Source: a virus
Direction: 5' to 3' (one strand)
DNA: 31,681 nucleotides
Virus record (IMG/VR): IMGVR_UViG_3300021963_005729
Span: 1 to 31,681 of that record
Each line of letters begins with the position of its first letter. The stretch's first letter is position 1. Positions 672-31,681 of this stretch are shown here, piece by piece. The position numbers and the translations under genes were made by a program. The notes beneath the pieces were generated by a model. It was not told the origin of the DNA and did not search any database. It was given only the letters and a program-made list of their open reading frames with translations.

Positions 672-902
672 ATGAAAATGTATCCAGAACTAAACGAACT
701 TCAGTCATTTACAGTAGAAGAATTTCAAAAAGATTTTGATAATCTAATACAAAGAGTTGAAAATGGTGAATCATTTATTATACAAGATGGAGATAACAGC
801 GCAGTGATAGTTCCTTACAATGAAACCATAAAGTACGCAATAGAATCAACTGTGGATGATGAAATGATACGTCTCCACACAGACCACGAAGAAGGTTCAT
901 AA
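672..902 (+). CDS. Phd/YefM antitoxin-like small protein
   Basis: The 76-residue protein lies between tRNA-Pro and tRNA-Ile. Residues 12-50 follow the Phd/YefM plan: a helix ending in a DNLIQRVENGE turn, a FIIQDGDNSAV strand pair and an AVIVPY strand. Those proteins bind operator DNA through this fold and neutralise a toxin through a C-terminal tail. The tail here (residues 51-76) is acidic and short. No toxin gene (Doc, RelE/YoeB) is adjacent, so it may act as a solitary regulator or counter a host toxin. A second ATG two codons in is an alternative start. The fold is inferred from the motif pattern only. Confidence 0.6.
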   Translation: MKMYPELNELQSFTVEEFQKDFDNLIQRVENGESFIIQDGDNSAVIVPYNETIKYAIESTVDDEMIRLHTDHEEGS

Positions 903-1564: not shown

Positions 1565-1831
1565 ATGGACTATAACAGCACTGGTCGGGAGCAAAACCCC
1601 TTTATATCAAAATCTGATTTACTTCGGTGGATTGGAAATATTCTTCTTATAATTGGTTATCAAACTATGTTATGGGGAGAATTTAAATTTGGTTTGATAA
1701 TTAAATGTATTGGAGGATTACTGACAGTACCTTTTGCTATCAAACTTAAACTTTGGGATGTACTATTCTTATGTGCATTCTTTGGTATTACCGAGATATC
1801 AAAGTTAACCCAACTTTTCTTAGTTTCTTAA
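1565..1831 (+). CDS. Small multi-pass membrane protein (88 aa)
   Basis: After a polar stretch of about 20 residues, three hydrophobic segments follow, roughly residues 22-40, 43-60 and 66-84, so it is probably an inner-membrane protein. It has conserved-looking features (LLRWIGNILLIIGYQTMLWG) but no known family comes to mind. It begins 11 bases after the previous gene. Its stop codon lies in the loop of the first of the tandem hairpins (1819-1838), so those hairpins start inside this gene's 3' end. Confidence 0.7.
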   Translation: MDYNSTGREQNPFISKSDLLRWIGNILLIIGYQTMLWGEFKFGLIIKCIGGLLTVPFAIKLKLWDVLFLCAFFGITEISKLTQLFLVS

Positions 1832-1950
1832 AACTAAGTGGTGGAGTCAAAATGACCCCTTAGAGTTTCTTGCTTCTCTCAAGAGCAAGTGGTGCGGATG
1901 GGATCTCTCCCGCCTGGTTTCCAATTTCCAGTTAAAGAATTGGTGGCGAG
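1819..1950 (+). ncRNA. Array of three hairpins upstream of the sugar operon (possible cis-regulatory RNA)
   Basis: Three hairpins occur at near-regular spacing: 1819-1838 (CTTAGTTT/AAACTAAG), 1869-1889 (CTTGCT/AGCAAG) and 1921-1943 (CCAATT/AATTGG). Each is followed at once by a similar element: TGGTGGAG at 1839, TGGTGCGG at 1890, TGGCGAG at 1944. The second and third are preceded by GTTT, giving a loose repeat of about 51 bases. No cloverleaf and no open frame explains it. It lies just before a terminator and a gene of the GDP-sugar epimerase class. A cis-acting RNA named wcaG is known from cyanophages upstream of such exopolysaccharide genes. Assignment to it is a guess from context; I could not compare the consensus. 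Confidence 0.4.
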
Positions 1951-1964
1951 CCTGAGTTACATAA

Positions 1965-1992
1965 GATGGGTTGCACAAACCCATCTTTTTTT
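1965..1992 (+). terminator. Intrinsic terminator ahead of the sugar operon
   Basis: GATGGGTT (1965-1972) pairs perfectly with AACCCATC (1978-1985) around a 5-base loop, followed by seven T (1986-1992). It ends the upstream unit, or could be the expression platform of the preceding hairpin RNA. The -35 box of the next promoter lies inside it. Confidence 0.88.
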
Positions 1993-1999
1993 GTATAAT
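1971..1999 (+). promoter_or_regulatory. Sigma-70 promoter of the polysaccharide operon
   Basis: TTGCAC (1971-1976) and TATAAT (1994-1999) are separated by 17 bases. The -35 box spans the terminator stem-loop and the -10 follows its T-run. The 12-base string around the -10, GTATAATACATA, is identical to that at 1079-1090. Transcription would begin near 2006, leaving a leader of about 20 bases before the ATG at 2026. Confidence 0.8.
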
Positions 2000-2025: not shown

Positions 2026-3093
2026 ATGAGTGATTATAAGAAAACAGCACTTGTACTTGGTGCTGGTGGTTTTATTGGAAGCCATATGGTAAAGAGACTA
2101 CGATCCGAGGGGTATTGGGTGCGTGGTGTGGATCTTAAAAGTCCAGAGTTTTCTGAAACTGAAGCACACGAATTTGTTCACGGCGATCTTCGTGATGTGA
2201 ATTTTGTTCGTCGTGTGCTTGAATACAAAGGTCCTTATAGGAATTTTTATAATTCTGTTCCCTGGCGTTACATTGAAACATTTGATGAAATTTATCAGTT
2301 CGCTGCTGATATGGGTGGCGCAGGATTTGTTTTCACTGGAGAAAACGATGCGGATATCATGCACAACTCAGTCACCATTAATCTGAACGTTCTTGAGATG
2401 CAACGTAAAATGAATGAAGATAAAGGTGTAAATGCCACCAAGATCTTCTACTCTGGATCTGCGTGTATGTATCCAGAATACAATCAACTTGATCCAGACA
2501 ATCCTGACTGTCGTGAATCATCTGCATATCCAGCCAATCCCGATAGCGAATATGGATGGGAAAAACTCTTCTCAGAAAGACTCTATTTTGCTTACAATCG
2601 CAATTATGGAATTCCTGTTCGTGTTGCCAGGTATCACAATATCTTTGGTCCCGAAGGAACTTGGTCGGGCGGTCGTGAAAAAGCTCCAGCAGCAATGTGC
2701 CGTAAGGTAGCAGAACTTAGTGTTTCTGGTGGTGAGATTGAAGTTTGGGGAGATGGCAATCAAACTCGATCATTCCTTTATATTGATGAGTGTATTGAAG
2801 CAACTCGTCGTTTGATGGATTCTGATTTTATTGGACCCGTTAATATTGGATCGGAAGAAATGGTCACTATTAATCAACTTGTAGATACTGTTGCTAAAGT
2901 TTCTGGAAAATCTGTGGAGAAAAAACACATTGCTGGACCTTTAGGTGTTCGTGGTCGTAATTCTAATAACGATTTGATTCGTGAAAAATTGGGATGGGAT
3001 TATTCCCAAAGTCTTGAAGAAGGAATTCGTAAAACTTACGAGTGGATTAATGCCCAAGTCTATAAAGATACTGTAATGCACCATCCAGTTTGA
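2026..3093 (+). CDS. GDP-mannose 3,5-epimerase
   Basis: This is a 355-residue extended short-chain dehydrogenase/reductase. The NAD-binding loop GAGGFIG is at residues 12-18. S144 and the YGWEK motif (Y176, K180) form the SDR active site. The FAADMGG, SGSACMYPEY, RYHNIFGPEGTWSGGREK, WGDGNQTRSFLYIDE and NIGSEEMV blocks match plant GDP-mannose 3,5-epimerase closely. The acid/base pair of that enzyme (Cys145 and Lys217 in Arabidopsis) corresponds to Cys147 and Lys219 here. The enzyme converts GDP-D-mannose to GDP-L-galactose (and GDP-L-gulose) in the cytoplasm. It is the first gene of a 23-gene sugar operon, behind the promoter at 1971-1999. A different GDP- or UDP-sugar epimerase is possible but less likely. 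Confidence 0.9.
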   Translation: MSDYKKTALVLGAGGFIGSHMVKRLRSEGYWVRGVDLKSPEFSETEAHEFVHGDLRDVNFVRRVLEYKGPYRNFYNSVPWRYIETFDEIYQFAADMGGAGFVFTGENDADIMHNSVTINLNVLEMQRKMNEDKGVNATKIFYSGSACMYPEYNQLDPDNPDCRESSAYPANPDSEYGWEKLFSERLYFAYNRNYGIPVRVARYHNIFGPEGTWSGGREKAPAAMCRKVAELSVSGGEIEVWGDGNQTRSFLYIDECIEATRRLMDSDFIGPVNIGSEEMVTINQLVDTVAKVSGKSVEKKHIAGPLGVRGRNSNNDLIREKLGWDYSQSLEEGIRKTYEWINAQVYKDTVMHHPV

Positions 3094-20021: not shown

Positions 20022-20052
20022 TTTGTCGTTTAGTACATACAAAAAACTTTTT

Positions 20053-21540
20053 ATGAAACTCAAACAACTGATGCTTGCACCTGTTGCTCTGGGAATGGTT
20101 GCTCCTGTTGCTGCGAATGCCGCAGATCTTAATATGGCAGCAGTCAACCAATACACTTCCTCGGAACAAGTCTCAAGCATCAAACAACTTTCTGATGTCC
20201 AACCTACCGATTGGGCTTATCAGGCACTCAGCAATCTGGTTGAGCGTTATGGTTGCGTTGCTGGTTATGAAAACGGAACTTATCTTGGTGGTAAGGCAAT
20301 GACCCGTTTTGAGGCAGCAGCACTTCTGAATGCTTGTCTGGATCGCGTAACTGAAGTCACCGATGAACTCCAGCGTCTTGCTACCGAGTTCGCTAACGAA
20401 CTTCAAGTTCTTCGTGGTCGTGTTGCTAAACTGGAGAAGCAAACCGCTGCTCTTCAGGCACAGCAGTTCTCTACCACTACGAAACTCAAAGGTGAAGCAA
20501 CCTTCGTTCTGGGTGGTGTAGAAGGTGCTCGTCTTGCTAACAACACCAATGTTGGTAACACTGCTTTCAACTATGACCTCCGCCTGAGTTTTGATACTTC
20601 CTTCACTGGTAAGGATCTGCTCAAGACCCGTCTGCGTTCTGGTAACTTCTCCTCGCAACCCTTTGGTTCTTCCTCGTCTCTGTTCAAACTGGACAAGGCA
20701 GAAAGCACCTCCAACGCTGTACAACTTGACCGTCTGTACTACAGCTTCCCTGCACTTACTAAGGGCGTGACTCTGACTGCTGGTGCTCTTGTTCGTAACA
20801 CCGAGATGGCTTGGGTTCCTACCGCATACAAGTCGGATGTTCTTGACTTCTTTGCTGTTGCTGGTGCTCCTGGTGTCTATAACAAGGCAACTGGTTCTGG
20901 TTTCGGTGCTCAGTGGGTACAGCCTACCAAGAAAGGTAAACCTGGTTTCGTCGCTGGCATCAACTACGTCGCTCAAAATGGTTCTGATAGCACCAAAGGA
21001 GAGTTCAATGCTGCTGGTGCTCTGAATACTCTTGCTCAAGTTGGTTACCGTGCTCCTCAGTATGGTATTGCATTCGGTTATCGTAATGGTACTGAAGGCA
21101 CTCGTATCCGTACCTTTAATGGTGTTGCTGGCAATAGTGGCACTCTTGCTGCTAACCAAACCTCCAATGGTTATTCTCTGAATGCTTACTGGCAACCCAA
21201 GACCTCTGGTATTATTCCTTCTGTGAGTGCTGCCTATGGTTGGAACTATGTAAGTGGCCCTGCAACTCCTAATGCTGCTACCAACTCTCAGACTTGGATG
21301 GCAGGTGTTCAGTGGAGTGATGTATTTGCCAAGGGTAATGCCGCTGGTTTTGCCATCGGTGCCCCCGGTAATGCCGAATCTCTCACAAAGGATGCTGTGA
21401 TGTGGGAAGCATTTTATCGTTACAAAGTTAGCGATGCAATCAGCGTAACCCCTGCTGTGTTCTATGTGTCTAACAACCAAGCTCTGAAGAATTCTTCTTC
21501 TAACTATGGTGGTGTGATTCAGACGACGTTCCGTTTCTGA
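20053..21540 (+). CDS. SLH-domain outer-membrane porin (cyanobacterial OprB/Som type)
   Basis: Read from ATG 20053 the protein has 495 residues: a signal peptide ending ANA at about 23, an S-layer-homology domain around 45-95 (VQPTDWAYQALSNLVERYG, MTRFEAAALLNACL), a coiled coil (about 95-140), then a long Gly/Asn/Tyr-rich beta-barrel ending in TTFRF. This is the domain order of cyanobacterial porins that anchor to peptidoglycan by SLH and form an outer-membrane channel. Codon use is more GC-rich and host-like than in the neighbouring phage genes, suggesting fairly recent transfer from Synechococcus. The adjacent pstS suggests a role in nutrient (phosphate) entry, but a decoy or receptor-masking role is possible. 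Confidence 0.9.
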   Translation: MKLKQLMLAPVALGMVAPVAANAADLNMAAVNQYTSSEQVSSIKQLSDVQPTDWAYQALSNLVERYGCVAGYENGTYLGGKAMTRFEAAALLNACLDRVTEVTDELQRLATEFANELQVLRGRVAKLEKQTAALQAQQFSTTTKLKGEATFVLGGVEGARLANNTNVGNTAFNYDLRLSFDTSFTGKDLLKTRLRSGNFSSQPFGSSSSLFKLDKAESTSNAVQLDRLYYSFPALTKGVTLTAGALVRNTEMAWVPTAYKSDVLDFFAVAGAPGVYNKATGSGFGAQWVQPTKKGKPGFVAGINYVAQNGSDSTKGEFNAAGALNTLAQVGYRAPQYGIAFGYRNGTEGTRIRTFNGVAGNSGTLAANQTSNGYSLNAYWQPKTSGIIPSVSAAYGWNYVSGPATPNAATNSQTWMAGVQWSDVFAKGNAAGFAIGAPGNAESLTKDAVMWEAFYRYKVSDAISVTPAVFYVSNNQALKNSSSNYGGVIQTTFRF

Positions 21541-31521: not shown

Positions 31522-31681
31522 GTAAACAAATGTTACGAAATACTCATATTTCTTAACATTGCTAACACCCGTTAACCGAGACCTATGGGTGTATAAATTA
31601 CGTCTCTCATATCCCCGCTAAGGGTGCGGGGAGCATAGTATCTCCACCATTTCCCTGATGGTCTTACTATCCTTTTAATCA
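31522..31681 (+). ncRNA. Structured 5' leader of a gene beyond the window
   Basis: No open frame lies downstream of the promoter to the window's end. Three hairpins are visible: ACACCC/GGGTGT (31565-31570/31587-31592), CCCCGC/GCGGGG (31613-31618/31626-31631), and ACCAT/ATGGT near 31648-31664. A TATAAAT string lies at 31592. A leader of this length suggests post-transcriptional control. The known cyanophage motif PhotoRC-II, found in psbA leaders, is a candidate by context only. Confidence 0.45.

Follow-up and report, generated by a model that had tools for sequence, protein, structure and literature searches.

The wcaG RNA of cyanophages may be the 3′ half of a larger modular RNA, which would end the transcript of the phage gene pair gp205-gp206, carry one to four pseudoknot-UGGU modules that are interchangeable and have genes between them, and serve as an array of protein sites acting in cis or in trans; to this composite description we give an even chance. 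As regards its position, we read the array as a structured element at the 3′ end of the early gp205-gp206 transcript and not as a leader riboswitch of the sugar operon that follows; we consider this somewhat probable because the upstream unit is conserved while the downstream genes vary, and because the array ends at a terminator to which it shows no special complementarity. Comparison of related loci, at the level of sequence, establishes the predicted pseudoknots, the modularity, the conserved upstream unit, the terminator, and the promoter fused to it.

The window, that is, the whole stretch of DNA that was analyzed, is a 31.7-kb virus record. Three stem-loops are located at 1814/1819-1838, 1862-1889, and 1914-1943, and each is followed directly on its 3′ side by a short element, TGGTG (1839), TGGTG (1890), and TGGCG (1944), with spacings of 51 and 54 bases. 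These hairpins, their TGGTG/TGGCG elements, and the terminator after them had been noticed in a preliminary description of the DNA, and they are real; about 120 viral contigs contain the same elements at the same spacing. The description had also guessed at the wcaG family, and a covariance-model search with RF01761 (wcaG) agreed, with a match at 1861-1957 that scored 102.2 bits against a gathering score of 42 and covered model positions 1-98 of 98. Given this score, the elements in the window are far beyond chance. The wcaG model spans hairpins 2 and 3 of the window, and hairpin 1 lies outside of it; a repeated unit was first suspected because a weak, sub-threshold second alignment (21.5 bits) places hairpin 1 on the second half of the model. 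No other Rfam family matched the array stretch of the window at E < 0.6. A PhotoRC-II RNA (RF01717, 82.9 bits), a known psbA-associated cyanophage motif, was found at 31554-31646, the right end of the window, and psbA itself would fall beyond the window. Elsewhere in the window, two long frames on opposite strands overlap almost fully (20023-21540, + strand, 505 aa; 20173-21480, − strand, 435 aa).

Relatives were collected as 120 stretches from a pattern scan of viral contigs, with cultured cyanophages added, and their alignment revealed a conserved region that extends well upstream of the Rfam wcaG model. Each module consists of an H-type pseudoknot, followed directly by UGG(U/C) and then by a small hairpin, which the last module does not have. 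The tandem arrangement of similar units that had been proposed for the window was thus seen across the relatives as an array of modules. Furthermore, the stem-loops of the preliminary description are present where it had placed them; however, the elements are pseudoknots and not plain hairpins, and the array begins approximately 260 bases earlier, at 1557. On the + strand of the window, module 1 (1557-1600) contains a type X pseudoknot, the anchor TGGTCGG at 1582, and a hairpin CGGG..CCCC. Module 2 (1814-1859), which is hairpin 1, is of type A and has the anchor TGGTGGAGTC at 1839 and a hairpin GGAGTCA..TGACCC; its stem S2 covaries, and S1 is not evident in the window copy. Modules 3 and 4, the first and second halves of the Rfam wcaG, both contain type A pseudoknots: module 3 (1862-1914) with S1 AGAG/CTCT, S2 CTTGC/GCAAG, the anchor TGGTGCGGA at 1890, and a hairpin with a GGAU bulge, and module 4 (1914-1955) with S1 CTGG/CCAG, S2 CCAATT/AATTGG, and the anchor TGGCGAGCC at 1944. 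A small membrane-protein ORF (phrog_2318; 1565-1831, + strand) is inserted between modules 1 and 2, and its stop codon lies inside module 2. The usual ATG of this gene after module 1 is ATA in the window (1600-1612) and in S-SRM01, and in both the frame opens from an ATG inside module 1 (at 1565 in the window, in the pseudoknot loop); translation of the membrane gene may accordingly start within the module 1 pseudoknot.

The differences between the stems, which had been described as compensatory, behave as such in the homologue alignment. For modules 3 and 4, a set of 64 distinct sequences was scored against a structure of two crossing stems per module. Paired cells amounted to 98.4%, compared to 83% in shuffles, a control that ignores the relatedness of the sequences, and 39-52% when the partners were slid; likewise, 253 cells were changed on both sides, in both stems of both pseudoknots, compared to 80 in the shuffles and 9-24 with slid partners. 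Given the slid controls and how varied the pair types are, chance is an unlikely explanation for this pairing. S1 of module 4, for example, is mostly CUGG/CCAG, is CAGG/CCUG in other sequences, and is CCUG/CAGG in SynMITS9220M01 and Bellamy, and RN05-S and WH25-B have a quite different pseudoknot in the position of module 4. A crude search for the longest S1 of module 3 performed no better than swapped pairs; with the register fixed, this stem covaries in the alignment (G-C to A-U, columns 10-26). In type X modules, the four-pair S1 is paired in all 70 distinct sequences, and the pair between a loop base and the tail is C-G or U-A in 70 of 70. Compensatory changes were also found in the helices of type Y and of module 2. 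Three pseudoknot types interchange before the common UGGUGCGGA anchor, and the unpaired bases UUUC, UGGUGCGGAUGG, and AAA are near-invariant.

The number of modules was exactly four in 70 of the 88 distinct wcaG-bearing loci with enough flanking sequence, a set selected for the presence of module 3. Of these four-module arrays, 33 are uninterrupted, 34 have one gap, and three have two gaps; the gaps measure 200-800 nt and each holds a gene, with small genes located between modules 1 and 2 or 2 and 3. A layout of one module per intergenic gap was therefore rejected, since the number stays at four with zero, one, or two intervening genes. The 3′ anchors occur in the order TGGTCGG, TGGTGGAGTC, TGGTGCGGA, and TGGCG(A/T)GC, the first two of which sometimes trade places, and a TGGTGGAGTC-anchored module occupies the position of hairpin 1 in most relatives. 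Arrays of one to three modules were found after gp206 in S-RIM2, ACG-2014a/b/f, and P-SSM4; because these other T4-like cyanophages carry fewer modules, four is typical of wcaG-bearing loci and not universal. The repeats are not scattered across the phage genome, as the 240-kb genome of S-SRM01 contains a single array, and an origin in the host was also rejected: among 84,980 genomes of bacteria and archaea, a scan returned 33 matches, none of them in a record titled cyanobacteria, which were read as chance. Hypothetical genes have been annotated over the structured RNA in loci L170 (2341-2499, Syn9 gp208), L122 (4296-4502), and L166 (2490-2579, Syn1_206), and these are probably not real genes.

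Upstream of the array, all on the + strand of the window, a promoter designated P1 (1056-1085; TTGACA-18-TATAAT, 12/12 consensus) precedes the gp205 homologue (1108-1323; 71 aa, phrog_552), which is followed by the gp206 homologue (1320-1553; 77 aa, phrog_481), the near-universal upstream neighbor of the array. Homologues of gp205/gp206 were found upstream of the array in 83 of 91 distinct loci, and in 71 of 78 homologues the start of gp205 is preceded by a promoter matching at least 10 of the 12 consensus positions, compared to a background of 7%; the distance from promoter to gp205 start is 51-52 nt among the examples listed. Homologues of gp206 occur in 461 phage records, and the upstream synteny of the pair could reflect general conservation of the genome instead of a functional link. 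AlphaFold models of gp205 and gp206 were confident (pLDDT 91 and 84), and neither had a significant match among PDB structures (best E values 4.4 and 0.41). The possibility that these are RNA-binding proteins was rejected, as neither has a recognizable RNA-binding fold; gp206 has a beta-beta-beta-beta-alpha order reminiscent of PUR domains (E approximately 0.8), which was not counted as evidence. A Phd-like antitoxin gene (phrog_375) without an obvious toxin lies between tRNA genes in the window (672-902 and 908-1054), and an antitoxin-tRNA arrangement stands directly before the array in L010, L079, L110, and L120, which are loci without gp205/gp206. A perfect hairpin, TTTGCTATTTGCAAATAGCAAA, follows the tRNA and precedes the array or the next tRNA in L010, L079, and L120.

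Downstream, the RNA of the array would end at an intrinsic terminator (1963-1992, + strand), and such a terminator follows the array in 101 of 115 loci. A second promoter, P2 (1971-1999, + strand), has its −35 element (TTGCAC) in the terminator loop and, after 17 bp, its −10 element (TATAAT) at 1994-1999; in the −35 of the window, TTG is the only part shared with the consensus. Such a fusion of terminator and promoter is present in 74 of 122 records, with TTGCAT, TTGACA, or TTTACA in the loop, TATAAT after the U-run, and a spacing of 16-18 bp, nearly always 17 among the cases listed. The fused promoter is replaced in Syn9 and ACG-2014a by a separate one, TTGACA/TATAAT-like, that follows the terminator, and about one-tenth of the loci have no terminator, the array lying near the start codon. 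The first gene of the downstream glycan operon in the window is a nucleotide-sugar epimerase (2026-3093, + strand), as had been described, and an epimerase lies no more than 2.5 kb downstream in 68 of 89 loci. Other genes found in this position are a cytidylyltransferase, glycosyltransferases, a 2OG-Fe(II) oxygenase, and a tRNA followed by hli or a tail fibre gene; hli accompanies the array in Syn9 and S-IOM18. A tRNA gene begins right after the array in several marine isolates (L165 at 2617, L167 at 2654, L168 at 2695, and L169 at 2669), where array and tRNA are joined by a GC-rich hairpin whose U-run is short or absent; this suggests that the RNA is processed at these junctions rather than terminated.

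Whether the array controls the genes that follow it was weighed against this arrangement. According to Weinberg et al. (2010; PMC2864571), wcaG RNA is found in marine sequences and cyanophages, is probably cis-regulatory, and is linked to exopolysaccharide or high-light genes, whose regulation those authors proposed; later phage papers restate this description. The loci examined here are likewise marine or cyanophage sequences with the array near exopolysaccharide or high-light genes. A control of this leader type, in which a cooperative riboswitch, or an antitermination element that is bound by a protein or contacts the polymerase, would gate read-through from P1 into the glycan operon, would account for the terminator just past the array in most loci, for the nucleotide-sugar or glycan genes that are mostly found downstream, and for the highly conserved, aptamer-like unpaired positions. 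Antitermination RNAs also serve long exopolysaccharide operons elsewhere. Furthermore, the sugar-related gene downstream in most loci is what the published leader model leads one to expect, and it counts against the reading preferred here, as do the loci in which no terminator follows the array. However, the genes downstream have a promoter of their own, within the terminator or past it, and are replaced by a tRNA, hli, or a tail fibre gene in some phages, whereas the unit upstream stays constant. In addition, the array pairs no better with its own terminator than with those of swapped loci (−11.88 compared to −12.08 kcal/mol), and a simple riboswitch with an overlapping antiterminator was rejected for this reason. 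The preliminary description had taken the RNA for an aptamer or riboswitch in the leader of the sugar operon; this claim is now doubtful, given the terminator that intervenes, the −35 and −10 of the operon that are fused into it, the lack of switching complementarity, and a conserved partner that lies upstream. Leader-type control as a whole is considered rather unlikely, although it ranks first among the alternatives.

The array together with its terminator might also be cut out of a transcript, or be made on its own, and act in trans as a small RNA on host targets or as a sponge for a host RNA-binding protein. In L010, L057, L079, L110, and L120, a tRNA precedes the array and neither gp205 nor gp206 was detected upstream, so that the transcript there would consist of tRNA and array; moreover, the array often stands beside tRNA genes, which need processing, and four similar tandem sites resemble a sponge. 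On the other hand, the array has no evident promoter of its own immediately before it, it abuts the upstream stop codon in most loci, and genes are inserted within it, which makes a small RNA of this kind improbable.

Under the reading of the array as the 3′ end of the gp205-gp206 transcript, the early transcript would start at P1, carry gp205, gp206, and the array, and stop at the 1963-1992 terminator; the sugar operon would start anew from P2, which is fused into that terminator. The array could then remain as a stable 3′-terminal domain or be released as an RNA from the gp205-gp206 transcript, and its repeated pseudoknot-UGGU sites may be bound, possibly cooperatively, by a phage or host protein. 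The early transcript would thereby be controlled in its stability or output, or the protein would be titrated, and no sugar would be sensed for the next gene. That a protein or ligand recognizes each module is favored by the near-invariant unpaired bases and by the recurring UGGU anchor. Although the position of the array at transcript ends before terminators and its interchangeable stems would suit plain 3′-UTR ballast, that is, hairpins that merely slow 3′ exonucleases without specific recognition, this is very improbable, as UUUC, UGGUGCGGAUGG, and AAA are near-invariant while unpaired and the UGGU anchor is constant across pseudoknot types, which suggests specific recognition.

Phages of cyanobacteria are among the most abundant marine viruses, and the riboswitch candidate wcaG has been an orphan since 2010; if the array is not a sugar-sensing leader, ligand searches based on that model may pose the wrong question. 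The literature searched contained no experimental work on wcaG, no base-resolution cyanophage transcriptome, and no description of the extended modular architecture, the fused terminator-promoter, or the conserved upstream unit; nor were wcaG pseudoknots found described there, the 2010 drawing of wcaG not being part of this comparison. To our knowledge, a modular pseudoknot array with genes between its modules has not been described in phages of cyanobacteria.

Several known systems resemble the array in part. The EAR/epsC antitermination RNA is a structured RNA near long exopolysaccharide operons and the put RNA of HK022 is a structured RNA in phage early transcripts, and the array could act like either on a nearby terminator; however, a terminator closes the wcaG array and the operon beyond it has a separate promoter, and the Rfam model of EAR/epsC gave no match, either at the gathering threshold or with the E limit relaxed to 10. 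Similar to tmRNA, the array contains several tandem pseudoknots with a reading frame between them and has tRNA genes nearby, but it does not have tRNA-like ends, its inserted genes (200-800 nt) are of unrelated kinds, and neither ARAGORN nor Rfam identified a tmRNA, so this identity was rejected. Tandem pseudoknots in viral 3′ UTRs, such as exonuclease-resistant RNAs, likewise occur close to the 3′ terminus of viral transcripts; they are likened to the array by layout, with no sequence relation seen, and differ from it in that the array has a bacterial host and conserved UGGU-hairpin linkers. The closest comparison is with wcaG RNA (RF01761) itself, of which modules 3 and 4 together form a full-length, high-scoring member with the same hosts and the same association with sugar or high-light genes. 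In Rfam, however, wcaG is drawn as two plain hairpins with a middle hairpin, whereas two further modules lie upstream here, each module contains a pseudoknot, genes stand between modules, a fused terminator-promoter follows, and a conserved early gene pair precedes the array; the results thus redraw the borders and structure of wcaG and name its conserved partner genes.
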